Assembly: GCA_026387405.1 (NCBI GenBank) | Contig: JAPLLV010000025.1 | Span: forward strand, 1-44,008 | Source: Candidatus Omnitrophota bacterium | Lineage (GTDB): Bacteria; Omnitrophota; Gorgyraeia; Gygaellales; Profunditerraquicolaceae | Direction of reading: 5' to 3' | DNA length: 44,008 bases | Shown: positions 20,259 through 40,418 of the stretch, piece by piece | Layout of the letters: the number at the start of each line of letters is the position of its first letter | Numbering within the stretch: the first letter of the stretch is position 1 | The notes under the pieces: model-generated | Told to the model about the DNA's origin: nothing | Seen by the model: the letters and a program-made list of their open reading frames with translations, nothing else | Database searches by the model: none | Made by a program: the position numbers and the translations under genes

Positions 20259-20259
20259 A

Positions 20260-23440: not shown

Positions 23441-24427
23441 ATGTTTATCGATAGTTTCCTCCTGGCAGGTATCTCTTTTTCCCTTTCTCTGTTTTTCGTA
23501 ATTTTATTCAAGATTTTAGCCTTAAAACACAAATTGCTTCTGAGGCAAAAGATACCTCAAGTAGGCGGTATTGCTATTTGCCTTTCCTTCATGGCCAGCG
23601 TTTTGACCGTATTTTTAAGCAGGGGATTTTTCTCCCGTCCGGCGCAAGGCATTATCCTGGCCTCTCTGGCAATGCTTATTTTTGGTATCATTGATGATTG
23701 GAGAGAGTCTTCGATCAAGGCCAAGGTTATCTTCCAGGTTATCGCTACCGCTATTCTTTATTATTTTGGCGTCAAGACCCAGATTATATATATCGGGGTA
23801 TTCTTGAACGCTATTATTACTTTCCTCTGGGTTATCGGCATTACTAATGCCTTCAATCATCTCGATGTCATGGACGGCTTAGCCGCGAGCAACGCTATTA
23901 TCGCGGCCTGCGCTTTTGGGGGGATAGCTTTCTTAAGCGCCGATTTCTCAAGCAGTATCTTGGTCTTGAGCCTATTAGGCGCAACTTGCGGTTTTATAAT
24001 CTTTAATCTTCCCCCTGCCCGGGTATACCTTGGTAATTCCGGCAGCCATCTTTTAGGGTTTATTTTGGCAGCCATATCTATAGTTATAAGTTACGCGCCC
24101 ATGAATAGAAAAGTCGCGCTTCTCGCCCCCCTGTTAATTCTGGGTTTTCCCATCTTTGACACCTTTTTTCTTATCTTGGTACGCCTGAGCAGGAAGAGAA
24201 TCCCCTTTAAAAAGAGTAATGATCATATGGTATTAAGATTTTTGAGTATGGGTGTTCCCAAGAGGACCATCCTTTTTTTTGTTCTCATAGTGGCCGGTAT
24301 TTTTTCTTTGGGCGGGGTATTTTTAACCCGCCTTTCCAATTATATCGGTATGGTTATTGTATCAGGGGCGGTATTTGTCAGTTTTGTTGTAGCCAAGGCG
24401 AGCCTGAAGATCAGCATAAATGACTAA
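23441..24427 (+). CDS. Polyprenyl-phosphate sugar-1-phosphate transferase (WecA/MraY family)
   Basis: This 328-residue protein has about ten transmembrane helices. The family's cytoplasmic loops are visible: IPQVGGIAI, the Mg-binding GIIDDWRES, NAFNHLDVMDGLA, and ARVYLGNSGSHLLGF, followed by PIFDTFFLILVRLSRK. It should start glycan synthesis by loading a sugar-phosphate on undecaprenyl phosphate. One oddity is that the loop usually reading F-x-G-D-x-G-S has Asn instead of Asp (YLGNSGS). Its position at the head of the export genes fits an initiating role. It overlaps the next gene by 8 bp. Confidence 0.88.
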   Translation: MFIDSFLLAGISFSLSLFFVILFKILALKHKLLLRQKIPQVGGIAICLSFMASVLTVFLSRGFFSRPAQGIILASLAMLIFGIIDDWRESSIKAKVIFQVIATAILYYFGVKTQIIYIGVFLNAIITFLWVIGITNAFNHLDVMDGLAASNAIIAACAFGGIAFLSADFSSSILVLSLLGATCGFIIFNLPPARVYLGNSGSHLLGFILAAISIVISYAPMNRKVALLAPLLILGFPIFDTFFLILVRLSRKRIPFKKSNDHMVLRFLSMGVPKRTILFFVLIVAGIFSLGGVFLTRLSNYIGMVIVSGAVFVSFVVAKASLKISIND

Positions 24428-25721
24428 AAAGAAAAAAATAATTATTTTAGGGGCGGGGCTGGCGGGTTTAAGCGCTGCCTGGCATTTATCTAAGAAGGGC
24501 GGGGAATATCAGATTTTCGAAAAAGAGCCCGAAATCGGAGGGCTGTGCCGTTCCAAGAAGACCTCGGGATTTACCTTTGATTGCGACGGCCACCTCCTGC
24601 ATTTCCGTTACCCCTACACTTTTAATTTAGTCAGGCAGCTTTTAGAAGACAATCTGGTTGAGCATCAGAGGAGTTCCTGGATTTACGCCTATTCCCAATA
24701 CATCCGTTACCCATTCCAGGCGAATCTTTACGGTCTCCCCCCGAAGATTATCGAGGAATGTCTTTTGGGGTTCATTGAGGCCTCCAGGAACGGCCTGCAC
24801 GTAAAGAAAGGCCCGGACACTTTCCTGGATTGGATATACCGCACCTTTGGCAAGGGGATCGCGAAACATTTTATGCTTCCCTATAACGCCAAATTCTGGA
24901 CGGTTAGCCCTAAGAAAATGACCTGTGAGTGGCTGGATGGTTTTATCCCTGTCCCGTGCATGGACCACGTGGTAGAAGGCGCGATAGAAGAAAGCCTTCG
25001 TCAATTCGGCTACAACTCTAGATTCTGGTATCCCAAAAACGGCGGGATCAACGCACTTCCTTTGGCCTTTGCCAAGAGGATTAAAAATATACACACCAAT
25101 TGCGGCGTAGAGAGGATCGACATACAGAAAAAAGAAATCACTTTGTCCTCCGGCCTCAAAGAAAAGTTCGATTATCTGATCTCTACCCTCCCTTTGCCGG
25201 AATTGCCGCAGATCATTCGAGGCATGCCCAGGGAGACCGCCAAGTTGTTTAATAAGCTAAAATGGAATTCTATCTTTAACCTTAATCTGGGGATAGAAAA
25301 GACCGACCGTACAAAAAGGCATTGGGTATATTTTCCCGATGAGGATTTCTGTTTTTTCCGCGCCGGGTTTTACCATAATTTTTCTTCCAGCCTGGTCCCC
25401 CAGGATAAGAGTTCCCTGTATATAGAGGTTTCTTATTCCAGGGAAAAGCCCGTTGATAAGAATAACCTGATCCCCGCGATAAAAAAGGACCTTAAGAGAG
25501 TGGGTTTAATGGGCGAGGGCGATACGGTTTGCGCAGAAGATGTCAATGATATCAAATACGGCTATCCTATTTACGATGAGCACTATGCAGCGGTAAGGAG
25601 CGCGATTATCAAGTACCTGGCCAAGAACGCGATTTTGCCTTGCGGCCGCTACGGCTCCTGGCGTTATTTCTCCATGGAAGACACTATTCTTGATGCCAGG
25701 CACGTGGCCAACACCCTTTAG
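24420..25721 (+). CDS. FAD/NAD(P)-dependent amine-oxidase-like oxidoreductase
   Basis: The N-terminus carries the dinucleotide-binding GAGLAGLSAAWHLS, followed by FEKEPEIGGLCRS and the active-site-like CDGHLLHFRYP. The rest resembles the protoporphyrinogen oxidase/UDP-galactopyranose mutase group of flavoproteins (433 residues, with RYPFQANLYGLP and a C-terminal GRYGSWRYFSMEDTI). In polysaccharide clusters such proteins often act on sugar nucleotides, so a mutase-like or oxidase role is possible. The exact substrate is not evident. It overlaps the upstream gene by 8 bp and is followed within 4 bp by the permease gene. Confidence 0.8.
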   Translation: MTKKKKIIILGAGLAGLSAAWHLSKKGGEYQIFEKEPEIGGLCRSKKTSGFTFDCDGHLLHFRYPYTFNLVRQLLEDNLVEHQRSSWIYAYSQYIRYPFQANLYGLPPKIIEECLLGFIEASRNGLHVKKGPDTFLDWIYRTFGKGIAKHFMLPYNAKFWTVSPKKMTCEWLDGFIPVPCMDHVVEGAIEESLRQFGYNSRFWYPKNGGINALPLAFAKRIKNIHTNCGVERIDIQKKEITLSSGLKEKFDYLISTLPLPELPQIIRGMPRETAKLFNKLKWNSIFNLNLGIEKTDRTKRHWVYFPDEDFCFFRAGFYHNFSSSLVPQDKSSLYIEVSYSREKPVDKNNLIPAIKKDLKRVGLMGEGDTVCAEDVNDIKYGYPIYDEHYAAVRSAIIKYLAKNAILPCGRYGSWRYFSMEDTILDARHVANTL

Positions 25722-25725
25722 ACCT

Positions 25726-26511
25726 ATGTATGCTTTTTACGGGCGCATAAAATCTTTTTTTTCCAATAGCAGCGTTTTGAAAACGCTGATTGTCAAAAAC
25801 TATAAGTCCAGGTACGCCAATACCGCGCTGGGCGTATTGTGGGCGGTGCTTACGCCTTTGCTTATATCGTTCATAGTTTATTTTGTGTTTAGCCATATCA
25901 CTCAGGTCAGCGAGAAGAATTTTATTGCCTATGTCATATCCGGGATGCTGCCCTGGCTCTGTTTTGCGGCATCAGTACAGGAGGGCGCCGGTTCCCTTAC
26001 CGACAACGCAGGCCTATGGAGGCAGTTCAGGGTGCCGTTAGAGTTTATGCCGGCATCGTGCGTAGCGGTTAATTTTTTAAACCTGGCGCTGGGGTTAGCC
26101 GTCGCGCAGGTCTTCTTGCTGCGGTTTTCCCCCAAAGGGATCTTTCTTTTCCTGCTTTTGCCCGTCCCTTTGGCCTTGCATTTTTTCTTTACCCTGGGTG
26201 GTGCGCTTATTTTTTCCTCCTTATCTGTCCGGCGCAAAGATACCGCCTATTTCTTAAATGTGTTTCTGCTTTTCTGGCTGTGGGCGAGCCCGGTATTCTA
26301 TTTCCGGGATAGATTTCCCGCGGCTATCCAGAGAATATTCGACTTCAATATTATCTGTCCGTTCTTAAATTTATACCGCAGTATTTATTATGAAAACACC
26401 ATTTTCAATGCAAAAGACCTATTCGCCGCAGGATGTCTGGCTTTTGCTTCTTTTTTGTGCGGCTACTATTTTTTCATAAAAAGAGAAGACGAACTTAAAA
26501 AGGCCCTTTGA
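25726..26511 (+). CDS. wzm: ABC-2 type polysaccharide export permease (Wzm-like)
   Basis: ATG at 25726 follows the upstream stop closely and gives 261 residues. The N-terminal cytosolic helix contains LIVKNYKSRYANTALGVLWAVLTPLL, the typical start of Wzm/TagG permeases (only part of the block is quoted here as motif). Six transmembrane helices can be made out, ending with the YYFFIKREDELKKAL tail. It should form the channel through which a lipid-linked glycan crosses the inner membrane, powered by the ATPase encoded 4 bp downstream. A longer frame from 25690 overlaps the flavoprotein and is not used. Confidence 0.92.
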   Translation: MYAFYGRIKSFFSNSSVLKTLIVKNYKSRYANTALGVLWAVLTPLLISFIVYFVFSHITQVSEKNFIAYVISGMLPWLCFAASVQEGAGSLTDNAGLWRQFRVPLEFMPASCVAVNFLNLALGLAVAQVFLLRFSPKGIFLFLLLPVPLALHFFFTLGGALIFSSLSVRRKDTAYFLNVFLLFWLWASPVFYFRDRFPAAIQRIFDFNIICPFLNLYRSIYYENTIFNAKDLFAAGCLAFASFLCGYYFFIKREDELKKAL

Positions 26512-26515
26512 GGAT

Positions 26516-29500
26516 ATGGAAAACGAGATCGCCTTACAGATACGAGATGTTTCTGAGCGCTACGGTATTGACTTCCTTATCAACGGCAAGGTTACGCACG
26601 AGGAGATAACAGCCGTGGATAAGGTCAGTTTCACCGTAAAAAAGGGCGAATGCGTGGCTATGCTCGGAGCCAACGGCGCGGGAAAAAGCACGATACTCAA
26701 ACTTATTGCCGGGATAATCAAGCCTGACGCGGGAGATGTCCGGGTCGAGGGCAGGGTAGCCAGTATCCTGGATCTGGGAGCAGGGTTTGACCCGCAGCTT
26801 ACCGGCAGGGAGAATATCTTTCTCCTGGCGAAGTTTTACGGGATCGCCAGGGAAGAGATCCAGCCCAAGATGGATCAGGTGATCGCGTTTTCCGGGATAG
26901 GTAAATTCATCGATGCGCCTTTAAAATGTTATTCTTCCGGCATGTATGTGCGCCTGGCTTTCAGCCTGGCCATCCACGTGGAACCGGATATAATTTTGAT
27001 AGATGATTGCCTGGCGGTAGGGGATGAGGCCTTTCAAAAAAAATGCATTGAAAAAATATTTGAACTAAAAAACCAGGGGAAAACGATCATTTTTGTCACC
27101 CACGATGCCCATTTAGTGTCTGTTTTAGCCCGGCGCGGGATTTTCGTAAAAGACGGACGTATTTTACATGACGGCCCGATCGAAAGGGCCATTGTTTGCT
27201 ATACCCAGATGGTCGGCGATATTAACGGCATAGGTATACTGAATAAAGATAACTTATCGGTGATATTTAACAACGGCAAGATTTATATAAACTGGCGGAA
27301 TGCCCCGCTCTCAAAAGGGTTCGGAGGCTTTGCCGTTATACGGACCGGGCAGGGAGAATTATTCTCCAAGGATTTGTCTTGGAGGGTAGAACTGGAGGGT
27401 ATGGACAGCCTCATGGCAAGGGCAACCGATGCGGAAGCAAAAGTTATCCAGGCCTGGAGTTTGAAGCTCGCTGAGGATAATTGTATAGATTGGCAGATCG
27501 ACACGGCTGCCGGGGCACAAGAGAAGGAATATTTCAGCCGGATCAATCTTATGCTTAACGAGAGATTCACCCACTGGTCTACTCTGGGCAAAGAAGGTGT
27601 TTTCCCTTCACAATACCCTTCAGTCAGAGAGTGGCAGGTTTTAGACGCGCAGGAGCCGGATACGGACGGAGGCGGTATCATCTCCTGCCGCAGTGAAAGC
27701 CCTGACGAGGCAGCCCTGCCCGGGGTGGTGCTGGAATCGGCTAAAAAAGACGATTTTTTAGTTGCGCGGGCCTTGATCACCGGGCCGGAACAGTCGGCAA
27801 GGGTTCTTTCGCTGGAGGCGATGCCCGCAACAAAAGGGAACAGGTTCTCCGGCAGGATCAGGTTATTTGAGAACAACCAGGAACTGGCGAGTTATCTATC
27901 CTTTAGGAAAGCAAAATTCATCCAGGAACACACTATTCAGAAACTGGGTACAAAATTGTTCTTTGACCGCGGCCGCCTGCGTTTATTCTATAAGGAATCC
28001 GAATTGACCAAGGCCAATTGTTTTTTCGGGGCCTTATACGCCAAAGACAGGTGGTTTAGTTCTTTTGACGCCGCCTGGAGCTTTAAAAAACAGGACGAAC
28101 AAACAATTTTAGTGAGCGCGTACTGGCCGGAGTTAAAAGCCAGGCATGCCTGGCAGGTTTCATTAGTGGACCAGTTCAGGATTTCCTGGAAGGTTGTATT
28201 AGAGACGGAAGATGACCTGGAGGTGTTGTCTTGCCGTAACGGCATTTATTTATCCACCGGCTATAAAGATTGGTTCAGTAGTTACGAAGAAGGGGTGTTC
28301 CCCGGAGAATTCCAGTGGCAGGACATGGTTTTGGAAAACCCGCTAAGAAAATCCGTAGGGGTAAAGAAATCCGGGCTTTATCCCGGGGTTGCATTGGAAA
28401 CTCGAGAATCGGGTGTAAATAATACCGTCGCTATCCAAAATAGCGATTCCCATTATCAATCCCGGATAATCTATGCCGCGGCGGTTCTCCCCAGGGCCGT
28501 GGAAGGGTTCAATTGTCCGGCCGGCAGGCGCGAAATATTCTCCGGGGTTATCCAGTTATATCCCAGCGCGGAACTGGTCGAAAAGTATCTGGAAGTCAGC
28601 CAAAAAGAAAAGCTGGACAAAGAGTTGAGCCTGCAGGCACGGGCCATAGAAACACATACCATTCAGAAAGGCCCGATAAAAATAATCTTTGACGCGGCGT
28701 CTTTGCGCATATTTTATAATGAGCTGGAAATAAGCGAAGGCCGCGGCATCCGCTCGGTATTCGACGTGCACAAGATCAACAAACAGCTTAATTCCGACTT
28801 CGCCCTCTGGCAGGTGGATAAGGTATCCCTGAACAGGATGAAGTGTGTTTTACGCTGGGTGGATATCGCCAGTATCTCGCAGGAATGGGATATCAGCATA
28901 GAAGACAACCGCATTGATCTATTGCTTACCATGACCTCCTACGATAATACGGATATTTTTAACGAACGTACCGGATTGCTCTTGTCCCGGAATTATAAAC
29001 AGTGGGTTACGGCTTCCGGTGAGGAGGGTGAGGTAAATTATGATTTCTCCGAACGCAGCAAAGGAGTAGCGCTTAAAAACAACAAAGCCGGCCGCATGCA
29101 TGTGCGGGAATTTATTCAGCAAGGTACGGTTTATCCCGCCGCTTCATTCTCTTCATTTTTAGACCGGCAGGAGCAGGTAGTTTCCCTGACCGTGGATAAA
29201 GATAACGGATTAGGCCTGTATTTTTTTAAAGTCAAGCCCCGTGAGGCAGCAAGCAAAACGCCCGGGACATACGTTTATTTTAAAGGCAGCGTGATCTTTA
29301 AAGAGCCGGAGCCGGCAGATAAAGACCCGGAAGATCATTTAAGCGGACACATTATTAATCTTCCCGGGCTTAAGGCGCTAGATTTACGTTTTGATAACGG
29401 GGCGATAAAACTGTTCTGGGGGAAAAAAGAAATAACCAAGGGGTTGGGTTTTTATACCTCTTTTTGCTGCGCAGGCCTTTGGCATGATTCCAGCCAGGCA

Positions 29501-30010
29501 ATATGGAAGAAGAATAAAATTTGCGCGCAAAGCTTGGAAGTTACGGGTACCTGGGCCTGGATCCCGGTGATACAATCGTGGCGGATAAAGACCGAGGGTA
29601 AAAAGATCATCCTGGATATCGAGACTGAAGTTTACCGGGAATTTTATCTGGAATCCGAAGAGGTCAATCTATTCTTGACGGATGAATACCGTAAATGGTT
29701 CGCCGGTAAAAGGCGCGGCCCTTTTTATAACGAATTCAGCCAAAGCGATTTATTCCGTTTTCGCATCTGGATAAGCAGGGTGGCTGACGAGAGGATGGGG
29801 GTGGAGGCGAGATTATTCCGTCTGCCCGCCGTATCTTTGAGGCCTCAATCAATTGCCCGGGACGCGTATTTAGTTATTGAAAATGCCAATATACTCCGGG
29901 ATAAGGGCCGGCTTATCCAATACATGAGACTGCCGGACAGGGAGCAGGCTTTGATCAGGCCATGCCATTATAATTCTTTTAAAGGCGTTATAGAAGTGGG
30001 CAGGATATAA
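26516..30010 (+). CDS. wzt: Wzt-like ABC ATPase with four tandem copies of an unrecognised domain
   Basis: Residues 1-235 are an ABC ATPase of the Wzt type: Walker A GANGAGKST (51-59), Q-loop region, signature YSSGMYVRLAFS, Walker B ILIDDCLAVGDEAF and the switch FVTHD. The usual Walker B glutamate is Asp here (IDD instead of VDE). Normal Wzt adds one C-terminal glycan-binding domain of about 170 residues. This protein adds about 930 residues in four related domains, R1 246-470, R2 478-700, R3 719-935, R4 955-1164. Each opens with an F-x-x-G-x-(L/I)-x-(L/I)-(F/Y)-(Y/W) strand and a short E-(L/I)-(T/S) turn. Each then has tryptophans, a (L/V)-x-L-x-x-x-Y-x-x-W block, and ends F-x-G-x-I-x-(L/V). 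The same domain starts the next protein. Confidence 0.9.
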   Translation: MENEIALQIRDVSERYGIDFLINGKVTHEEITAVDKVSFTVKKGECVAMLGANGAGKSTILKLIAGIIKPDAGDVRVEGRVASILDLGAGFDPQLTGRENIFLLAKFYGIAREEIQPKMDQVIAFSGIGKFIDAPLKCYSSGMYVRLAFSLAIHVEPDIILIDDCLAVGDEAFQKKCIEKIFELKNQGKTIIFVTHDAHLVSVLARRGIFVKDGRILHDGPIERAIVCYTQMVGDINGIGILNKDNLSVIFNNGKIYINWRNAPLSKGFGGFAVIRTGQGELFSKDLSWRVELEGMDSLMARATDAEAKVIQAWSLKLAEDNCIDWQIDTAAGAQEKEYFSRINLMLNERFTHWSTLGKEGVFPSQYPSVREWQVLDAQEPDTDGGGIISCRSESPDEAALPGVVLESAKKDDFLVARALITGPEQSARVLSLEAMPATKGNRFSGRIRLFENNQELASYLSFRKAKFIQEHTIQKLGTKLFFDRGRLRLFYKESELTKANCFFGALYAKDRWFSSFDAAWSFKKQDEQTILVSAYWPELKARHAWQVSLVDQFRISWKVVLETEDDLEVLSCRNGIYLSTGYKDWFSSYEEGVFPGEFQWQDMVLENPLRKSVGVKKSGLYPGVALETRESGVNNTVAIQNSDSHYQSRIIYAAAVLPRAVEGFNCPAGRREIFSGVIQLYPSAELVEKYLEVSQKEKLDKELSLQARAIETHTIQKGPIKIIFDAASLRIFYNELEISEGRGIRSVFDVHKINKQLNSDFALWQVDKVSLNRMKCVLRWVDIASISQEWDISIEDNRIDLLLTMTSYDNTDIFNERTGLLLSRNYKQWVTASGEEGEVNYDFSERSKGVALKNNKAGRMHVREFIQQGTVYPAASFSSFLDRQEQVVSLTVDKDNGLGLYFFKVKPREAASKTPGTYVYFKGSVIFKEPEPADKDPEDHLSGHIINLPGLKALDLRFDNGAIKLFWGKKEITKGLGFYTSFCCAGLWHDSSQAIWKKNKICAQSLEVTGTWAWIPVIQSWRIKTEGKKIILDIETEVYREFYLESEEVNLFLTDEYRKWFAGKRRGPFYNEFSQSDLFRFRIWISRVADERMGVEARLFRLPAVSLRPQSIARDAYLVIENANILRDKGRLIQYMRLPDREQALIRPCHYNSFKGVIEVGRI

Positions 30011-30012
30011 AT

Positions 30013-33000
30013 ATGTTTAAGCACTGGATAAAAAGATTTGCCGATCATTTTAAGAACAAGGGGATCATCTACGCATTTTATCGCGGCTGGAAATATCTGG
30101 CATATCTCACTAAGCTTCCCCTGCCCCGCAGGAAAAGAAGATTTATCAACAGCGTTTCCTGCGGCAGGCTTCGCGTTGCCTTTGTGCCCGGAGGGCTTAA
30201 GCTTTATTGGGGCGGGACCGAGCTTACCAGCAATGTGGGTTTGAACGTGGCATTATGCACCCTGGGCGCCTGGACTGATTCTTCCAAGGCAAGCTGGGAA
30301 GTGCTGGAAAGAAGACAAGACGCGCTGGTGATTAAAAGCAGGTTGCGCTATCTTCCGCTGGCCTTGATCTGGCGTCTGGAGATAATCGGGGAAAGAAAAC
30401 TTATCTGGCAGGCCAGGCTTGAGATAGAAGAGGATATCAGGATAGACAAGCTGCGGGTGTTGGTTATATTAAATAATAAATACAGGATGTGGCTGACCTC
30501 CAAGGCCAAAGGCATATTTTCCCAAGAGAAAACCGATATTGTTCCTGCGGCCGATTATCTGGCTGAACCGTGGCTGGGGGTCTATCCCGGAGAAAAGAAA
30601 GATCTTTATCCCGGGGTTATCCTTGAATTTCTCGGTAAGGCTAAAAATGCGTCCCCCTTAACAGAGCAGCTTTCGCTTAATACCGGCACAGCGCATCTCT
30701 TGGGAGCAGAATTCTCTTTCGACCAGTATGATGAAGATGTCTATTATCTTCCCGGTGAATACGAGTTATTTTCCGCGGAGCTGGACATCCTGGATTATTC
30801 CCGTTTTATGCCTTTTATCAGGGGCCTGAGGAGCAACGTTCAACCTGACGGCTCAAGGCTGATGAAGTCCGGCCGGCCCAAGGTGTTATTGCTTAATCTG
30901 CCCTGGGAAAAAGATGGCCGATGGGGTGTGCGCGCAGGTTCCCGCTGGCCGCATTTAAAGGATGATGCCGAAGAAGGCAATTATTTACCTTTTCCATTTT
31001 TTATGGCATATGCCGCAAGTCTTCTAAAAAAGCACGGTTTCCAGGCGCAGGTAATAGATGCGCTGGCGCAAAAATTACCCGCGGATAAAATAACCGAACA
31101 CATTGATAAATTTTCTCCCGACATATTGCTTGTAGAGACCTCTACGCCTTCCTTGAACTACGACCTCGCCTTGTTAGAGAAGATCGGGAATAAAGATTTT
31201 AAGGTTTGCCTCGCCGGCCCCGATACCAATGTCAGAGAACCGCAATTTCTTAAAAAAAATAGCTTTATAGACTTTGTCTTGATCGGGGAATACGAACATA
31301 CCCTGCTTGAACTTACAGAAGCCCTCTGGGGTGGAAAACCTCTTGAGGGGGTCAAGGGATTAATGTATCGCGATAAATGGGATATCACCTTGAATCCGGT
31401 CAGGCCGTTAATAGATCTGGATACCCTGCCCTGGCCCTTGAGAGAAGGGTTGCCTATGGACAAGTACCTGGATACCCCCGGAGGCATACCTACCCCTTCT
31501 GCGCAGATGCTTGCTTCCCGCGGCTGTATTTTTAAATGCAATTTCTGCCTTTGGCCGCAGGTCATGTACCAGGGTAATAGCTACCGTACCCGCAACACCA
31601 CGGACGTGGTTGATGAAATGGAATACCTGGTTAAAAAAATGGGTTTTCGCTCCATATATTTTGACGATGATACTTTTAATATCGGCAAACCAAGGATGCT
31701 TGATCTATGCGCGAAGATAAAGGAGCGCGGATTGGATAATATCCCCTGGGCGATCATGGCCCGGGCGGATCTGATGGACGAGGAAGTGCTGCGCGCGATG
31801 AAAGACGCAGGGCTGGTGGCGGTAAAATACGGGGTAGAGTCCGCTGCCCAAAAATTAGTGAATAATTGCGGGAAGAACCTGGATCTAGAGAAGGCCAGGA
31901 GGATGATCCTTTTTACCAAGGAATTGGGGATCAAGGTCCATCTTACCTTTACTTTTGGCCTGCCTGGTGAGACCAAGAGAAGTATTGACGAGACGATCGC
32001 CTATTGCCTGGAGCTCGCGCCGGATTCGGTGCAATTCTCCATTACTACCCCTTTTCCCGGCACAGCGTATTTTCAGGAGCTGGATAAAAAAGGCCGGATC
32101 ATCAACCGGGATTGGGATGAATATGATGGGAACTTTAAGAGCGTTATACGCCTGGAAGCCCTGACCAATGAGGACCTGGAAGCCGCGCGCAGGAAGGCCT
32201 GCGCGGCCTGGGAGGAAGCCAAGGCGGGCGGCCTTAGCTTAAATGATTACTGGTTAAAATTCAGCGATTCCTATCGCAGGCGCGGTTTGCTCTCCAGCGT
32301 TAAAAAAACAATTAATTACCTAAAAAAACATAACCTTAAAGAACTAATTAATAAAGTCAGGGCCGATAACCTGGATATTATGGGTATTTTTAACGGGAGG
32401 TTTGCCTTTAAGGGGCCATCGACCATACAGATAGACCTTACCGATTATTGTAATAATGACTGTTTGGCCTGTTGGTGTAATTCCCCGCTTTTAAGCCAGG
32501 AAAGATTGAATAAACCTAAAGATACACTGCCTGCTAAGCTGGTGAAAGAACTTATCAGAGAGGCGCACGGGATGGGGTTAAGGGATATCTATTTTTCCGG
32601 AGGAGGCGAGCCATTTATGCATCCGGATATCCTGGAGATACTTGAATATGCCAAAAGTTTAGGTATTTCCTGCGGGGTGAATACCAACTTTACCCTTATA
32701 GATGAAAAAGTTATTGCGCGGTTGATCGGCTTGAGGCTCGATCATCTTACCGTGAGCGTCTGGTCGGGGAGCGCGGAAACTTATAAGGCCCTGCATCCTA
32801 ATAAGTCGGAAAAAGACTTTTACCGCATCCGCGATATGCTCTGTTTGTTAAACAGCAAGAAAGACGTTTTTCCGGATATAAAGATCTATAATGTTATCTG
32901 CAACCTCAATTACCAGGAGATCCGTCAGATGCTGGAATTTGCGCGCCTGACAAAATCAGAGTTTGTGGAATTTACCGTAGTGGATACTATGCCCGGAGCT

Positions 33001-33543
33001 ACGGACAAACTCATCCTTTCGCCGGAACAGGGGCTTTGTGTCCGGGAGCAGTTTAAGGCGCTTCAAGGTGAATATTTGGATTGTCAAAACGGCTGCCGGC
33101 CCAAGGTGCTTAACCTTGAGACTTTCCTGCGCCGCGTGGAAAATCTGGATTCTCAAACAGCCCAGTATGACTCTAAATTCATTGATACCATGCCTTGTTA
33201 CATCGGATGGCTTTTTGCCAGGATCATGCCTAACGGAGATGTGAACTCCTGCCTTAAATCGCACCGTTTTCCCGTGGGCAACATACATAAGCACTCCTTT
33301 AAGGAGATCTGGAATTCGTCCAAGCAGGTCTATTTCCGCAAAAAAACGCTTAAGGCGCGCAAGGACGACGCCTTTTTTACGTTGATAGGCAATGACCCGG
33401 AATGCAGGATGGGTTGTTATAAAAGTTGTGATGATATAGGAAGAAACGTGTTTATGCACCAGCGGATCAATGATCTCTACCCTTATGAAAGGCGTATCCT
33501 GGGGTTAATGGGGAAAGCCAGATTTCTCCGGCCCAGGGATTAG
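30013..33543 (+). CDS. Fusion: Wzt-repeat domain, B12-binding, radical SAM, second radical SAM with SPASM
   Basis: This is a 1176-residue multidomain protein. Residues 50-265 are a fifth copy of the domain repeated in the upstream ATPase (LRVAFVPGGLKLYW, ILNNKYRMWL). Residues 290-440 are a cobalamin-binding-like Rossmann domain (KVLLLNLPW, ADKITEHIDKFSPDILLVETS) without a DxHxxG motif. Residues 495-700 are radical SAM domain 1 with C505-x3-C509-x2-C512, followed by FGLPGETKRSIDETI. Residues 800-1000 are a second radical SAM domain with C813-x3-C817-x2-C820 and FSGGGEPFMHP. A SPASM-like cysteine region starts at C1062. One chain thus holds two [4Fe-4S]-SAM centres. I infer modification of the exported glycan or lipid; the chemistry is unknown. 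Confidence 0.88.
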   Translation: MFKHWIKRFADHFKNKGIIYAFYRGWKYLAYLTKLPLPRRKRRFINSVSCGRLRVAFVPGGLKLYWGGTELTSNVGLNVALCTLGAWTDSSKASWEVLERRQDALVIKSRLRYLPLALIWRLEIIGERKLIWQARLEIEEDIRIDKLRVLVILNNKYRMWLTSKAKGIFSQEKTDIVPAADYLAEPWLGVYPGEKKDLYPGVILEFLGKAKNASPLTEQLSLNTGTAHLLGAEFSFDQYDEDVYYLPGEYELFSAELDILDYSRFMPFIRGLRSNVQPDGSRLMKSGRPKVLLLNLPWEKDGRWGVRAGSRWPHLKDDAEEGNYLPFPFFMAYAASLLKKHGFQAQVIDALAQKLPADKITEHIDKFSPDILLVETSTPSLNYDLALLEKIGNKDFKVCLAGPDTNVREPQFLKKNSFIDFVLIGEYEHTLLELTEALWGGKPLEGVKGLMYRDKWDITLNPVRPLIDLDTLPWPLREGLPMDKYLDTPGGIPTPSAQMLASRGCIFKCNFCLWPQVMYQGNSYRTRNTTDVVDEMEYLVKKMGFRSIYFDDDTFNIGKPRMLDLCAKIKERGLDNIPWAIMARADLMDEEVLRAMKDAGLVAVKYGVESAAQKLVNNCGKNLDLEKARRMILFTKELGIKVHLTFTFGLPGETKRSIDETIAYCLELAPDSVQFSITTPFPGTAYFQELDKKGRIINRDWDEYDGNFKSVIRLEALTNEDLEAARRKACAAWEEAKAGGLSLNDYWLKFSDSYRRRGLLSSVKKTINYLKKHNLKELINKVRADNLDIMGIFNGRFAFKGPSTIQIDLTDYCNNDCLACWCNSPLLSQERLNKPKDTLPAKLVKELIREAHGMGLRDIYFSGGGEPFMHPDILEILEYAKSLGISCGVNTNFTLIDEKVIARLIGLRLDHLTVSVWSGSAETYKALHPNKSEKDFYRIRDMLCLLNSKKDVFPDIKIYNVICNLNYQEIRQMLEFARLTKSEFVEFTVVDTMPGATDKLILSPEQGLCVREQFKALQGEYLDCQNGCRPKVLNLETFLRRVENLDSQTAQYDSKFIDTMPCYIGWLFARIMPNGDVNSCLKSHRFPVGNIHKHSFKEIWNSSKQVYFRKKTLKARKDDAFFTLIGNDPECRMGCYKSCDDIGRNVFMHQRINDLYPYERRILGLMGKARFLRPRD

Positions 33544-33552
33544 CGCATAAGA

Positions 33553-35040
33553 ATGGAAAACGCACCCTCGACAATCAAGAATGCCGATATCCTATTAGTG
33601 GTGGCTCCTCCCTTTTTTGTGAAGATGCCGCACATCGGCGTAGGTTATCTGGAGAGTTTTCTTGCCGCAAAAGGTTTTAAGGCGCAGGTTTATGATCTAA
33701 GCCTTAAGCTGCATAATAACGCCAAGGAGGACCTGAAGCGTTTCTGGCGCGTGGATTGCGTTAATTCTTATTTCCAGAGCGAGATCGCGGAGATAATTTT
33801 TAAGAGCTTCAAGAAAGAGATCGAGCGATTCGTGGATGATGTTTTGGCCGTTCCCACGGGAGTTATCGGATTCTCGGTGAACATGATCAGCATATATCTG
33901 GCCAACCGCATTGCCAAAATGATCAAGCTGGAAGATCCCTATCGTCTTATTGTTTTCGGCGGACCCGGCGCGTTCTATAGCCATCCGCGCGACCAGATCA
34001 AGCCCAGCTTCGCCGACGTCTATGTGGTGGGAGAAGGCGAGGTCACGCTTGTAGAGATACTCACCGCGCATAAGAATAACCAGGATATCCCCGACATACC
34101 GGGCGTGCTTTTAGCAGAAGACCTGGGTAAGCGCCAGCCCTTATTGCCGCCGAATATCCAGGATCTGGATGATATCCCTTTCCCCACATTTACGGGTTTT
34201 GACCTAAAAGAATATAACCAGGGAGAGGAGTATAAGCCCCTTCCGATCCTATTAAGCCGCGGCTGTATCCGCAGGTGCGCCTACTGTATTGACTATATGA
34301 TGTGGCCGAAGTTCAGGGCCAGGTCTGCCCGGCACGTGATGGATGAGATCCGCTATCAGGCGGAGCATAACGGAGCCAGGGCCTTTGAGGTGATAGATTT
34401 GACCTGTAACGGAAACTTAAAGCAGCTCTCTCAATTGTGCGATCTGATCATTGATTCGGGCCTGGATTTTACCTGGGTGAGTTACGCCATTATCCGCAAG
34501 GATATGAGCTTTGAACTATTACAAAAGATGAAAAAGGCGCGCTGCGATACCCTGATATACGGAGTGGAGAACGGCTCAGACAGGGTATTAAAACTTATGA
34601 ACAAGGGTTATACCGCCAACGATGCCTCGGAGGTCATCCGCAATACGCACAAGGCCGGGATACGCACCAACATAAATATTATCGTGGGTTTCCCCGGAGA
34701 GACCGAAGAGGATTTTCAGCAGACCATAAAATTTATCCAGGATAATAAGGATTATATCAATGAGGTCACCAATATCTCCGGGTGCACCTTGTTCCCTACT
34801 GCCGATATCGGCAGGAACAGGGGAAAATATGGGGTCTTCTGGGACGAGGATAGCGATCCCATGCTTTTTTACGATGCCAACGGCCTGGACCGCGAAGAAA
34901 GAAACAAGCGGGTAGCCCGCTTAGTGGAAATAGTCAATAACCTTAAATTAACCAAATCCATCGTGAATAAGCCTTCATTGAACCCGGAGGTAGAGCAGTT
35001 GATGGATCTTTTGGAAGGGGAAGATGAGAAGCCCAAGTAA
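33553..35040 (+). CDS. B12-binding domain radical SAM protein
   Basis: The N-terminal 200 residues are a B12-binding-type domain (ILLVVAPPFFVKMPHIGVGYLESFL in part, GVIGFSVNMIS, IVFGGPGAF, YVVGEGEVTL), again without the DxHxxG motif. The radical SAM core has LSRGCIRRCAYCIDY, giving C-x3-C-x2-C, then IYGVENGSDRVLKLMNKGY and VGFPGETEEDF. This layout is shared by BchE-like and class B methylases and other B12-dependent enzymes. Eight bases separate it from the double radical SAM gene, with which it is probably cotranscribed. Substrate not identifiable. Confidence 0.88.
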   Translation: MENAPSTIKNADILLVVAPPFFVKMPHIGVGYLESFLAAKGFKAQVYDLSLKLHNNAKEDLKRFWRVDCVNSYFQSEIAEIIFKSFKKEIERFVDDVLAVPTGVIGFSVNMISIYLANRIAKMIKLEDPYRLIVFGGPGAFYSHPRDQIKPSFADVYVVGEGEVTLVEILTAHKNNQDIPDIPGVLLAEDLGKRQPLLPPNIQDLDDIPFPTFTGFDLKEYNQGEEYKPLPILLSRGCIRRCAYCIDYMMWPKFRARSARHVMDEIRYQAEHNGARAFEVIDLTCNGNLKQLSQLCDLIIDSGLDFTWVSYAIIRKDMSFELLQKMKKARCDTLIYGVENGSDRVLKLMNKGYTANDASEVIRNTHKAGIRTNINIIVGFPGETEEDFQQTIKFIQDNKDYINEVTNISGCTLFPTADIGRNRGKYGVFWDEDSDPMLFYDANGLDREERNKRVARLVEIVNNLKLTKSIVNKPSLNPEVEQLMDLLEGEDEKPK

Positions 35041-35147: not shown

Positions 35148-36344
35148 TTGAAGATCCTGCTGATCCATCCCCACGATATTTATTCGCCCAATGAGCCCTG
35201 GACGATCCGCATCGTCAGCCTGGCCAGAGAGTTCAGGAGCAAGGGGCACCAGGTAAGGCTTGCTTATGCCCCGCTTGAGGTGAGAGAAGCCAAGAGGAGC
35301 GTGGAATTAGAAGGCGTAGAATTGATCACCCTGACAAGAAAGGCAGGGCTGGGCAGCCTCTTCGCTAATATCAAGAAGATAAAAAAATGCGCAGAATGGG
35401 CGGATATCATCCATTTCCAGAAATGTTTTCACTATATCGCCATCCCGGCCCTGGTAAGCGGTTTCCTTTTAGATAAGCCGCTGCATTATGATTGGGATGA
35501 TTGGGAAGAGAAGATCTGGTATCATTCCAATCGCGAGTCTATGCATACCGCCATATTTGGAAATTTTGTCAGGATACTGGAAAGATTTTTACCGGTTCTG
35601 GCAGATACGGTTTCTGTTGCCAGCAAGAAGCTGGGAGACCTGTGCATAGGTTTTGGGGTGAGGCCCTGCCGCATATTCAAGGCCCCGGTAGGGGCAGACC
35701 TGAGGAGATTCAGCCCTCTTATCAGCGGAGAAAGAATAAAGAGAAAATATCATCTTGAGAACAGCAGGGTAGTTTTGTATCTGGGGCAACTGCACGCCGG
35801 CCAGTACGTGGATATGTTTATTCAGGCGGCAAACGCAGTTTTACATAAACAGCCGGATGCGGTTTTCTGGATTCTCGGGCAGGGGTATATGGAGCACCAT
35901 TTAAGGCAAGCGGCAATAGACTATGGTATTGAGGATAAGGTATTTTTCATGGGTTCTGTCCCGCACGATCTGATACCGCAGTATATCGGCGCAGCGGATA
36001 TCTGCGTGGCTTGTTTTGAGGATAACGAAGTAACCGTATGTAAAAGCCCTTTAAAGATCGTGGAATACCTGGCCAGCGGGAAAGCGATCGTGGCTTCGTT
36101 AGTGGGAGAGACCCGGAATATGGTCGGCGGAGCGGGATTTTTAGTTGAGCCGGGTGATTATCATTCCCTGGCCGATGCCATTGTGAACGTGTTAAGGAAT
36201 CCCCGGTTAGAGCAGGAGTTGGGGCAAAGGGCCAGGCTGCGCGCAGAACGCAGGTATAATTGGGAGAATACCGCCGGTAATATTATCCGCGCTTATGAAA
36301 CGGCAATAGCGCTGCATAAGAATAACGTAGGAGGGGAGATATGA
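35148..36344 (+). CDS. Glycosyltransferase family 4
   Basis: This 398-residue GT-B enzyme starts with TTG at 35148 (KILLIHPHDIYSP), eight bases after GGAGGG. The C-terminal half has VVLYLGQLHAGQYVDMF, WILGQGYMEHHLRQ, FFMGSVPHDLIPQYIGAADICV and the donor site region KSPLKIVEYLASGKAIVAS with E-x7-type spacing shifted to the C-terminal side. The N-terminal half shows HFQKCFHYIAIPALVSG. Sugar and acceptor are unknown. It overlaps the HEAT gene by 4 bp (ATGA). Confidence 0.88.
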   Translation: MKILLIHPHDIYSPNEPWTIRIVSLAREFRSKGHQVRLAYAPLEVREAKRSVELEGVELITLTRKAGLGSLFANIKKIKKCAEWADIIHFQKCFHYIAIPALVSGFLLDKPLHYDWDDWEEKIWYHSNRESMHTAIFGNFVRILERFLPVLADTVSVASKKLGDLCIGFGVRPCRIFKAPVGADLRRFSPLISGERIKRKYHLENSRVVLYLGQLHAGQYVDMFIQAANAVLHKQPDAVFWILGQGYMEHHLRQAAIDYGIEDKVFFMGSVPHDLIPQYIGAADICVACFEDNEVTVCKSPLKIVEYLASGKAIVASLVGETRNMVGGAGFLVEPGDYHSLADAIVNVLRNPRLEQELGQRARLRAERRYNWENTAGNIIRAYETAIALHKNNVGGEI

Positions 36345-37444: not shown

Positions 37445-38386
37445 ATGAAGACGTCCATAATTATTCCGGTTTTTAACGAAGGAGAGAACTTGAGATTGCT
37501 TCATCCTAAACTCATCGAGGTCATGGAGGCCTTGGGCAGGGATTACGAAGTTATTTATATAGACGACAACAGCCGGGACGATAGTTTAAAGTTGTTAAGA
37601 CAGTTTTCCAGCGCCAATGGCAAAGTCAAGGTTATACATTTAGCGAGAAATTTTGGCCAGACGCTCGCTATTCAGGCGGGCATAGATAATTCAGCGGGGG
37701 ATCAGTTGATCATTATGGATGCCGATTTTCAAAATGACCCGCTGGACATACCAAAGTTACTGCTAAAGATGGAAGAAGGCTATGACGTGGTAAGCGGATG
37801 GAGAAAGCACAGGAAGGACCCGCTATTCAGCAAGAAGATACCTTCTTTTATCGGCAACAGCGTAATTACTTTTTTATTCGGCGTTAAGATCCATGATCTA
37901 GGCTGCGCCTTAAAGATTTATAAAAGGGACGTTATCGCGAATATAAGGTTATACGGAGAGATGCATAGGCTTCTGCCTTTATATGCAGTGATGCGAGGGG
38001 CATCTATTGCCGAAGTAGAGGTATCGCATAACCCGCGCTCCGCAGGTAAGACGCATTATGGGTGGTCGCGCGCCTTTAAGGTAAGCCTGGATTTGATAAC
38101 CGTGCGATTCTTTGATAAATATTCCACAAAACCCATATATGTTTTCGGCGGGGTCGGTATCTTTATGGCGATCTTAGGCACGCTGGTTGGGGCAGGGGTT
38201 ATTATCAGGACCATTATGTTTAAAGGCGCATGGATCAGCCCATTGCTATTCATTTCTTTGATGCTTTTTACCATGGGAGTACAGATGGTGTTTATGGGGT
38301 TATTGGCGGAGATAATCATTCGTATCTATTACAAATCACAAAAAGAAGAAACCTATTTAATAAAAGAAATAATATCAGCTAAATAA
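37445..38386 (+). CDS. Glycosyltransferase family 2, DPM1/GtrB-like polyprenyl-phosphate sugar transferase
   Basis: The N-terminal GT-A domain starts TSIIIPVFNEGENL, with YIDDNSRDDS, HLARNFGQTLAIQAG and the metal motif MDADFQNDP. The C-terminal part has two transmembrane helices (about residues 235-258 and 270-292). This matches DPM1/GtrB/ArnC enzymes, which transfer a sugar from a nucleotide to undecaprenyl phosphate. The product would be a donor for the GT39-like transferase encoded further downstream. The start lies 3 bp after the HEAT gene stop; the leader of the AsnB gene follows. Confidence 0.9.
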   Translation: MKTSIIIPVFNEGENLRLLHPKLIEVMEALGRDYEVIYIDDNSRDDSLKLLRQFSSANGKVKVIHLARNFGQTLAIQAGIDNSAGDQLIIMDADFQNDPLDIPKLLLKMEEGYDVVSGWRKHRKDPLFSKKIPSFIGNSVITFLFGVKIHDLGCALKIYKRDVIANIRLYGEMHRLLPLYAVMRGASIAEVEVSHNPRSAGKTHYGWSRAFKVSLDLITVRFFDKYSTKPIYVFGGVGIFMAILGTLVGAGVIIRTIMFKGAWISPLLFISLMLFTMGVQMVFMGLLAEIIIRIYYKSQKEETYLIKEIISAK

Positions 38387-38503
38387 CCTCCCGCGTGGAA
38401 AACGCGCGGGATTTCGCTTCCCGTTCGCTAACGCTCACGGGATTTCACTGGATAAATGTTTTTTGTGTTCAAAAATGCGCCTTCGGCGCAGGGGTGTGCT
38501 CAA
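38387..38503 (+). promoter_or_regulatory. Structured leader of the asparagine synthase-like gene
   Basis: The 117-bp gap can form three hairpins: CCCGCG/CGCGGG (38390-38410), CCCGT/ACGGG (38420-38441) and GCGCC-TTC-GGCGC (38477-38489). The last, followed by AGGGGTGTGCTCAA and then the GTG start, is 33/36 identical, start codon included, to the hypC leader at 5533-5568. The CGCGGGATTTCGCT sequence found upstream of hypC is also present here. AGGGG is a plausible ribosome-binding site. There is no T-run after the first hairpin, so a terminator is not supported. Confidence 0.5.
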
Positions 38504-40396
38504 GTGTGCGGAATCTGTGGGTTCATTTCTAGTAAAGAATACTCTATTCCTAGGCAGGATATACTGCTAAACATGCTTAATGCGATCCGGCACCGTGGGC
38601 CTGACGACGAAGGGGTATTTTTCGACAGAGAAGCAGCCCTGGGCACAAGAAGATTAAGTATCATAGATTTAGAGCTCGGGCATCAGCCGATGCATAACGA
38701 AGACAGCTCAATCTGGATAACCTACAACGGAGAGATATATAATTTTCGCGAATTGAGAGAAGAATTGGTCCGAGAGGGGCACGTTTTTTATACTAAGACC
38801 GATACCGAGATAGTGATCCATGCCTATGAAGAATGGGGCTATGAATGCGTGAAAAAATTTAACGGTATGTTCGCTTTTGCCATCTGGGACAAGCGGGACA
38901 ATTCTTTATTTTTGGCCCGTGACCGCTTTGGCATAAAACCGTTATATTATTCCGGATTTAACGGCCAGTTTTTATTTGCCTCAGAAATAAAATCAATTCT
39001 TAAATTTCCCGGTTTCTCCCGCGAATTAGATCTATGCGCTCTCGACCAATACTTAACCTTTGAATATGTTCCTGCTCCCCGTTCCATATTCAAAGAGATA
39101 AACAAGCTGCCGGCTGCGCACACCCTTATTTATAAAGATAATTATGTCGCCATCAGTAAATATTGGGATATTGACTTTTCAAGTCAGTCGTCTGTTTGCG
39201 ATGAAGGGGAGGTAAAGGAGCGGTTATTATTACTTTTAAAGGATTCAATAAAGAGGCAGATGATAAGTGATGTCCCTCTGGGGGTCTTCTTAAGCGGAGG
39301 GATCGACTCCAGCACGATCACGGCCCTGGCAAGCGGTTTATCGGCAAACAGGCTTAAAACATTCTCCATCGGTTTTAAAGAGCGTTCTTTCGATGAATCT
39401 AAGTATGTAAAACAGGTAGTGGATCTATATCGCACCGAGCATTATCATAACGATTTTACGATAAAAGAATTATCGGGTTTGTTGCCGGAGGCCGCCTCTT
39501 TACTGGATGAGCCATTTGGCGACGCCTCTTTTCTCCCCACGTTTTTACTTTCGAAGTTTACGCGGCAGCAGGTTACGGTTGCCTTAAGCGGTGACGGCGG
39601 GGATGAATTGTTCGCAGGATACCCTACTTATCAGGCGCATAGGCTCGCCGACTATTACTGCCGCATCCCGAGTTTTATCCAAAAAGGGGTTATTGGAAAT
39701 ATCGTAAAGCGCCTGCCGGTATCAATGAGTAATTTCAGCCTTGACTTTAAAGCAAAGAAATTTATTTCTTCCGCGGCTTATCCCCTTCCCTTACGCCATA
39801 TCATATGGATGGGTTCATTTAGCCCTCAAGAAAAAGAACAATTTTACAGCCCCTCCTTTAAAGAAGTATTAGGCGGGCAAGACAGTTTACGATCTTTGTA
39901 TGGTTATTTTGATCGTTTCCCGGAAAGCAGCGAATTGAACAGGCTGCAGTATTTCGATGCGAAAACATATCTGCAGGATGATCTTCTGGTTAAGACCGAC
40001 CGGGCGAGCATGTTTAATTCGCTTGAGGTGCGCGTCCCTTATCTGGACCATAATATAGCAGAATTTGTTTTCAGCCTGCCCGCTAATTTAAGGCTCCGTA
40101 ATTTTCAGACCAAGTATATTCTTAAAAAAACCGTAAGTAATATTTTGCCCGGGAATATAATCAACCGGGCGAAAAAGGGGTTTGGTATGCCGGCGGCATT
40201 TTGGATCAAGGGAGAACTTAAGGGCATGATGCTGGATGTTTTTAAAAAAGAAAAGATCGAGAAAGAGGGATGGTTTGGGTATGGGTACATAGATCGATTA
40301 CTGCAAGGGCATTTCGCCGGTAAGGCGGATAACCGCAAGAAGATCTGGACGCTTTTTATGTTTGAACTATGGTTAAAAGAATACCTTTGTATTTAA
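38504..40396 (+). CDS. asnB: Asparagine synthase-like glutamine amidotransferase
   Basis: This 630-residue protein has an N-terminal class II glutaminase and a C-terminal AANH synthetase domain. The chosen GTG at 38504 gives MCGICGFIS, so Cys2 becomes the catalytic N-terminal nucleophile; the longer frame from 38456 would bury it. Other motifs are RHRGPDDEG, YNGEIYNF, the PPi-loop FLSGGIDSS and ALSGDGGDELFAGY. In surface-polysaccharide clusters such proteins often amidate sugar carboxyl groups rather than make asparagine, so the symbol only indicates family. It is preceded by a leader like that of hypC. Confidence 0.9.
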   Translation: MCGICGFISSKEYSIPRQDILLNMLNAIRHRGPDDEGVFFDREAALGTRRLSIIDLELGHQPMHNEDSSIWITYNGEIYNFRELREELVREGHVFYTKTDTEIVIHAYEEWGYECVKKFNGMFAFAIWDKRDNSLFLARDRFGIKPLYYSGFNGQFLFASEIKSILKFPGFSRELDLCALDQYLTFEYVPAPRSIFKEINKLPAAHTLIYKDNYVAISKYWDIDFSSQSSVCDEGEVKERLLLLLKDSIKRQMISDVPLGVFLSGGIDSSTITALASGLSANRLKTFSIGFKERSFDESKYVKQVVDLYRTEHYHNDFTIKELSGLLPEAASLLDEPFGDASFLPTFLLSKFTRQQVTVALSGDGGDELFAGYPTYQAHRLADYYCRIPSFIQKGVIGNIVKRLPVSMSNFSLDFKAKKFISSAAYPLPLRHIIWMGSFSPQEKEQFYSPSFKEVLGGQDSLRSLYGYFDRFPESSELNRLQYFDAKTYLQDDLLVKTDRASMFNSLEVRVPYLDHNIAEFVFSLPANLRLRNFQTKYILKKTVSNILPGNIINRAKKGFGMPAAFWIKGELKGMMLDVFKKEKIEKEGWFGYGYIDRLLQGHFAGKADNRKKIWTLFMFELWLKEYLCI

Positions 40397-40418
40397 CTCA
40401 ACCAAAAACTCGAAGAGT

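Follow-up and report, generated by a model that had tools for sequence, protein, structure and literature searches.

Results

The contig analyzed here, JAPLLV010000025.1 of a Candidatus Omnitrophota bacterium (assembly GCA_026387405.1), is 44,008 nucleotides long, and this entire stretch is referred to as the window. Among its genes is a single open reading frame (30013-33543, + strand) that joins two radical S-adenosylmethionine (SAM) enzymes, a B12-type half and a SPASM half, to an N-terminal module, termed Nmod, which recurs in the export ATPase encoded immediately upstream (Table 1). The frame opens with an ATG located 2 bases past the end of the ATPase gene and continues for 1176 amino acids (aa) with zero internal stops. 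An initial annotation of the sequence had noted two CxxxCxxC motifs in this one frame, at C505/C509/C512 and C813/C817/C820, and both positions are exact, each motif residing within a Pfam Radical_SAM domain (PF04055), as in members of the radical SAM superfamily. The two domains score above the cut-off (7.5e-40 jointly; 74.5 and 72.8 bits singly; one at aa 502-664). The first motif is nearly invariant in 43 orthologues of the first half and the second is present in 37/37 orthologues of the second half, a conservation that excludes chance occurrence of either. The B12-type domain and the SPASM-like cysteines that had been proposed before the first and after the second motif are both borne out: PF02310 matches aa 331-434 (37.5 bits, cut-off 32.1), which is the N-terminal arrangement of class B radical SAM enzymes, although cobalamin use is putative, and the SPASM domain PF13186 matches aa 1062-1112 (41.6 bits, cut-off 21.5), with the typical C-x9-15-G-x4-C spacing and with C1062, C1080, C1135 and C1139 kept in 37/37 orthologues.

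In the orthologue alignment, the second half contains nine nearly invariant cysteines. Three belong to the radical SAM cluster, the four just named would fit an auxiliary cluster, and the remaining two, C822 and C887, may serve in catalysis or as ligands. As only four distal cysteines are invariant, the protein may hold fewer clusters than full SPASM proteins. For the B12-type half, the best NCBIfam match is HpnJ (TIGR03471; 4.4e-72), and its 243.5 bits against a curated cut-off of 577.6, like the 119.6 bits against a cut-off of 500 for the AprD4 family NF033070, place the half outside both families. BchE is also among its nearest families, and AprD4 (6fd2) is its closest PDB relative by sequence (8e-28) as well as by fold. 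Reaction assignments borrowed from HpnJ, BchE, AprD4 or a tungsten-oxidoreductase maturase family were all rejected, since the scores are far below the cut-offs. HpnJ acts upon bacteriohopane-linked glucosamine (PMC12583986) and AprD4 upon the pseudodisaccharide paromamine (PMC5461906); these sugar substrates at most hint at the substrate class of the B12-type half. The genome yields 43 Radical_SAM matches and one cobalamin riboswitch, the latter showing only that the organism handles B12.

Table 1. Annotated features of the window, with the fused gene and its parts listed first.
Feature	Position	Strand	Evidence
Fusion protein Nmod - B12-type radical SAM - radical SAM/SPASM, 1176 aa	30013..33543	+	Open frame; Pfam; orthologous fusions in genomes G030, G212, G319, G156
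Pair of predicted helices at aa 2-34 that may anchor the protein at the membrane surface	30016..30114	+	AlphaFold2 secondary structure; similar N-termini in other Nmod proteins of the B12 type
Nmod, about aa 43-275, predicted beta-supersandwich of galactose-mutarotase-like fold	30139..30837	+	Local hidden Markov model (HMM); AlphaFold2 pLDDT 88, pTM 0.86; Foldseek against PDB
B12-binding-type domain, aa 331-434	31003..31314	+	PF02310; cobalamin binding putative
Radical SAM core 1, C505-x3-C509-x2-C512	31516..32004	+	PF04055; cysteines nearly invariant
Helical linker between halves, aa ~740-790	32230..32382	+	AlphaFold2; comparison with split genes
Radical SAM core 2, C813-x3-C817-x2-C820; C822 and C887 also conserved	32437..32943	+	PF04055
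SPASM-type auxiliary cluster region, C1062-x12-G-x4-C1080 ... C1135-x3-C1139	33196..33429	+	PF13186
Wzt-like exporter ATPase of 1164 aa; C-terminal part holds four Nmod repeats	26516..30010	+	ABC_tran; TagH/Wzt-type NCBIfam below cut-off; Nmod HMM
Exporter Nmod repeat 1	27242..27736	+	Nmod HMM
Exporter Nmod repeat 2	27938..28399	+	Nmod HMM
Exporter Nmod repeat 3	28664..29152	+	Nmod HMM
Exporter Nmod repeat 4 (last), with W-x-D-S-x2-A-x-W	29369..29842	+	Nmod HMM; motif
Wzm-like ABC-2 permease	25690..26511	+	PF01061
FAD-dependent oxidoreductase, PRK07208 type, weakly similar to UDP-galactopyranose mutase	24420..25721	+	Family matches
WecA/MraY-type polyprenyl-phosphate sugar-1-phosphate transferase	23441..24427	+	PF00953; nearest NCBIfam WecA, below cut-off
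GT4 glycosyltransferase; relatives adjoin WecA in many cassettes	16771..17910	+	Family match; synteny
Another B12-type radical SAM protein, in synteny with the fusion	33553..35040	+	Pfam; synteny
GT4 glycosyltransferase, syntenic partner	35148..36344	+	Pfam; synteny
GT2, AsnB-type amidotransferase (XrtA/exopolysaccharide (EPS) type) and radical SAM/SPASM protein	37445..41570	+	Families; same order in G212, G319

The initial annotation had regarded a tandem radical SAM fusion as rare. In this phylum that view fails, as orthologous halves occupy a single chain in 20 of the 43 genomes carrying the B12 half. It had further held that a frameshift, or a second half starting as a conserved gene of its own, would speak against the fusion. 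On the first point the fusion stands: a metagenome-assembled genome (MAG) of Omnitrophota from Lake Pavin (JAPLLU010000033.1, our G030:C35) crosses the same junction intact at 68% identity, and since this independent MAG and other divergent genomes carry the fusion, it is not an assembly artefact. The second case does occur: the halves are separate genes at the same locus in 15 genomes, the second starting on its own in G037, G048, G035, G012 and eleven others; a single obligate tandem enzyme is consequently rejected. The linker at aa ~740-790 corresponds in the split genomes to the C-terminus of gene 1 plus the N-terminus of gene 2. The first half is found alone at nine loci, four of them at a contig edge. 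A piece on contig G030:C18 does not count as an additional case, since it represents the other end of the G030 fusion, with which it shares an overlap of 728 nt at 97%.

On a quick tree of 36 pairs, the fused or separate state changes at least six times, with five of the changes forced by the starred branches. The distances of the two halves are strongly correlated (Mantel r = 0.83, 0/2000 permutations as high), with shared organism history contributing to this value. The two halves form a conserved pair of enzymes, repeatedly fused or split, and the conserved pairing, the repeated state changes and the co-evolution argue for a lasting functional unit, whether as one protein or two. Recurrent fusion, conserved adjacency and co-evolution likewise argue for action of both halves in the same pathway, where they probably share a substrate.

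Within the first 290 aa of the fusion, Pfam yielded zero matches, and sequence relatives of Nmod in Pfam or PDB did not rise above chance. A profile seeded with Nmod, however, detected four copies in the upstream ATP-binding cassette (ABC) ATPase of 1164 aa, spaced ~235 aa apart along its C-terminal part, which confirms the suspected tie of the N-terminal module to a glycan-type exporter. An AlphaFold2 model built from 30 homologues is all-beta and confident (pLDDT 88, pTM 0.86), and its Foldseek neighbors in the PDB are supersandwich domains found in YidC and in GH38, GH63, GH36, GH97 and heparan-lyase enzymes (TM 0.4-0.67; E about 1e-6 and TM up to 0.67 for glycoside-hydrolase-associated domains). 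Nmod is thus confidently predicted to be a galactose-mutarotase-like beta-supersandwich, a fold common in carbohydrate-active enzymes, which we count toward a possible glycan role. Its alignment contains zero invariant charged residues, His and Glu included; there is consequently no sign of mutarotase catalysis, and binding seems the likelier role. A W-x-D-S-x2-A-x-W motif occurs in the last exporter Nmod (27/39) and in the Nmods of B12-type radical SAM proteins (18/21 and 17/24), whereas it is scarce in other exporter copies (4/33 and 3/40). In the window, both the last exporter Nmod and the Nmod of the fusion contain it.

Nmod was detected in 12/58 relatives, exactly those with a close orthologue (>40% identity) of either radical SAM half, and in 73/384 sampled Omnitrophota genomes (~20%) from several classes. 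Outside of this phylum, a single genome among 345 of the Thermodesulfobacteriota (L050) encodes it, in a simple form comprising Wzm, a one-Nmod ATPase and a B12-type radical SAM protein that stands alone and shares 52% identity with the B12-type half in the window; the phylum of L049 (a Geminicoccaceae record) yielded 0/349.

The genes flanking the fusion are similarly conserved. A Wzm-like gene lies at most five genes upstream of 46/50 ABC-Nmod genes (28/29 away from contig edges), and at the 29 loci away from contig edges the FAD enzyme and the WecA-like transferase are found upstream at 23 and 16, respectively. Downstream, the pair is followed by a further B12-type radical SAM gene and a GT4 gene, often together with GT2, AsnB and additional SPASM genes, giving a conserved order of GT4, WecA, FAD enzyme, Wzm, Wzt with n Nmods, enzyme pair, B12-type radical SAM and GT4. 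Farther along the contig of the window lie GT2 and PMT genes and additional radical SAM genes. An ABC-2 permease thus stands beside a TagH/Wzt-type ATPase within a glycosyltransferase cluster, and the conserved neighborhood of WecA-like, Wzm and glycosyltransferase genes points to an ABC-dependent surface-glycan locus whose exported glycan is undecaprenyl-linked, a reading that leans on established knowledge of the Wzm/Wzt pathway. No Pfam Wzt C-terminal domain matches the ATPase at E 0.01; a Wzt jelly-roll was rejected for its C-terminal part on this account, and because Nmod is predicted to be a supersandwich. Two further proteins at the locus were noted. The 1009-aa product of 20221-23250, located between a MoxR/DUF58 pair and the WecA-like gene, has no Pfam match and a weak homologue (30%) upstream of WecA in G004, while 36341-37441, between two glycosyltransferase genes, encodes a 366-aa HEAT-repeat protein with a 58% identical counterpart adjoining a GT2 gene in G030.

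Nmod and the two radical SAM kinds are combined in many other ways. The following arrangements derive from local profiles over fetched loci in genomes selected for holding Nmod. The window and four other genomes (G030, G212, G319 and G156) encode Nmod-B12rSAM-SPASM chains (B12rSAM, B12-type radical SAM). Other chains include ABC-Nmod(1-5), Nmod-B12rSAM, Nmod2-3-SPASM, B12rSAM-SPASM without Nmod (G192, G166, G120, G110, G329 and G244), B12rSAM-Nmod-SPASM-Nmod (seven genomes), B12rSAM-B12rSAM-SPASM (G139) and Nmod-B12rSAM-B12rSAM (G134). The N-termini of other Nmod-B12rSAM proteins show segments similar to the helices at aa 2-34. In addition, the exporter itself is joined to SPASM domains as ABC-Nmod2-SPASM (G353 and G261) and ABC-Nmod5-SPASM (G277), and to both kinds in a 1902-aa ABC-Nmod2-B12rSAM-Nmod-SPASM chain (G255, L118:5067-10775); these fused chains tie the exporter physically to radical SAM domains. 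Nmod is also attached to PMT-type glycosyltransferases (L053 and L056), which ties it to glycosyl transfer.

Several SPASM proteins in these genomes are unusual in their own right. The G353 chain (L146:8470-12039) is without a CxxxCxxC motif, and its radical SAM/SPASM domain may be inactive, possibly degenerate and retained for binding. Chains of 1412-1472 aa with three radical SAM/SPASM units, CxxxCxxC in each and an apparent insertion in the first, are encoded by genomes such as G035, G003 and G239 (L036:10463-14785, L042:1322-5638, L115:3793-8031 and others). Runs of consecutive radical SAM/SPASM genes lie near the exporter, downstream of the enzyme pair, at L039 and L041.

Discussion

On balance, though with modest confidence, we favor the view that the fusion is a two-enzyme component of a WecA-initiated Wzm/Wzt-type export pathway, in which Nmod docks the glycan, the two halves modify it and the exporter Nmods admit it. 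Held by Nmod at the inner side of the membrane, a glycan linked to undecaprenyl diphosphate would receive one radical modification from the B12-type half, such as C-methylation, dehydration or a ring rearrangement, and a second one from the SPASM half, for example an oxidation or epimerization with C822 or C887 as a possible hydrogen donor. The Nmod array of the exporter, above all its last copy, would then bind the modified glycan and admit it to Wzm, a step modeled on the jelly-roll domain of known Wzt with capped O antigen. As Nmod is found on both the enzymes and the exporter and the motif is shared, binding of the same glycan by both, with modification before export, is the simplest account, and successive action of both halves on one bound substrate, as suggested in the initial annotation, stays a plausible hypothesis. 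To the directly supported anatomy, homology, synteny, co-occurrence and repeated fusion, this interpretation adds a glycan ligand, an order of steps, a type of reaction and a gating of export that we infer. A wider version can be proposed only tentatively: an exporter-tethered radical assembly line, in which the shared docking module would pass one lipid-linked glycan among glycosyltransferase, B12-type enzyme, one to many SPASM enzymes and export ATPase, in an order rearranged per lineage, loosely comparable to modular synthases, though devoted to tailoring and exporting a glycan.

Several points weigh against the favored view. Most characterized SPASM enzymes act on peptides. Substrate, product and binding are all inferences from sequence, and the lipid carrier is read from one WecA-like gene. 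Nor is the supersandwich confined to proteins known to bind sugars, as the periplasmic domain of YidC shows. The W-x-D-S-x2-A-x-W motif was picked after inspecting the sequences, and common descent of the Nmod copies could explain its sharing without a common ligand. With all NCBIfam matches far below their cut-offs, no reaction can be transferred by homology. Finally, the full-length model of the fusion has a pTM of 0.44, so inter-domain placement is not predicted; its domain arrangement was rejected as evidence, and a shared active-site path between the halves is unsupported.

The same low pTM would suit a fusion that serves only co-expression or membrane localization, with the halves acting on different intermediates of one pathway and sharing no substrate binding. 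The separate genes of 15 genomes and the joined halves lacking Nmod are also in keeping with this. It is just this pair that is repeatedly fused, however, and in seven genomes an Nmod is inserted between the halves, so we regard this scenario as unlikely, albeit worth keeping in mind. Somewhat more doubtful is a role in modifying a small lipid or lipid-linked monosaccharide, as performed by HpnJ, with the ABC transporter exporting a lipid rather than a polymer. Both the B12-type half and a stand-alone homologue in G445 score best against HpnJ, and the ATPase resembles TagH and other exporters of lipid-linked substrates, whereas the glycosyltransferase runs, the WecA-like starter, the AsnB/EPS-type genes and the tandem Nmods per exporter fit a longer glycan. 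Maturation of a peptide or protein, as in ribosomally synthesized and post-translationally modified peptide (RiPP) systems, with Nmod binding the peptide, has little probability. Many SPASM families are peptide maturases, several of which are among the NCBIfam relatives here, but the cassette is rich in glycosyltransferases, AprD4, the nearest sequence relative of the first half in the PDB, is a sugar enzyme, and all intergenic gaps between 23441 and 43328 are <=107 bp; a RiPP system was rejected since the operon has no room for a precursor gene. Although the genome is a draft of 84 contigs, an assembly artefact or in-frame read-through of two genes can practically be dismissed, and the former was rejected, given the same junction in the independent MAG and other divergent genomes.

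The favored view, a docked glycan modified before export, has relatives among known systems. The cassette resembles the Wzm/Wzt O-antigen exporters of E. coli O9a and Aquifex in its Wzm-like permease, its Wzt-like ATPase with C-terminal domain(s), its glycosyltransferases and its WecA-type starter, and in known Wzt the chemically capped glycan is bound by a domain following the ATPase and is thereby qualified for export (PMC9445017). Unlike those Wzt proteins, which carry a jelly-roll dimer, the exporters described here carry 1-5 tandem supersandwich modules that are common to radical SAM enzymes, and the modification would be radical. The B12-type half differs from HpnJ (TIGR03471) in its gene context and in its fusion to Nmod and a SPASM enzyme, and from AprD4 in that the latter is a single radical SAM diol dehydratase of apramycin biosynthesis. 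Another comparison is FbiC, which has no B12 or SPASM domain and no docking module, and whose substrates are small molecules. Its constituent families, CofG and CofH, are not among the best 25 of 75 NCBIfam matches. What FbiC (FO synthase) shares with the fusion is two radical SAM domains per chain serving one product; this CofG-CofH fusion exists in many bacteria, with CofG and CofH separate in archaea (PMC11917521), and provides a known precedent for radical SAM pairs that are fused in some organisms and split in others. The Klebsiella O4/O7 polymerase/terminator proteins are similar in that modules for ABC-dependent glycan assembly are spread over single- and multi-module proteins; their modules are glycosyltransferases, kinases and methyltransferases, and the abstract on them does not mention radical SAM (PMC11231755).

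Precedents exist both for binding domains linked to Wzt and for fusions of radical SAM enzymes, and all of the pieces are of known kinds. As far as we could find, the shuffling of a docking module among exporter, radical SAM enzyme and glycosyltransferase is undescribed: no description of this system was found in open papers, and radical SAM goes unmentioned in the main survey of Omnitrophota. The reshuffling of these parts in ~20% of the sampled Omnitrophota genomes suggests a radical chemistry, so far undescribed, that acts on a surface glycan and is coupled to its export. Little has been charted of how bacteria tailor exported glycans with radical SAM enzymes, and the system renders testable such questions as surface display in Omnitrophota, radical-gated export and the gain from two fused radical SAM centers. 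Furthermore, Nmod is a new family of probable carbohydrate-binding modules, whose recurrence in the exporter, two radical SAM kinds and glycosyltransferases predicts which enzymes share a substrate.

Giant open reading frames are known in Omnitrophota (PMC10066038), and outside of the window we encountered one with several catalytic domains, which is noteworthy in itself. The 41,572-nt contig G000:C13:1-41572 (L160-L162) is taken up entirely by a single minus-strand frame of 13,857 aa that runs off both ends and contains B12-binding and Radical_SAM domains as well as apparent methyltransferase and P-loop kinase stretches.

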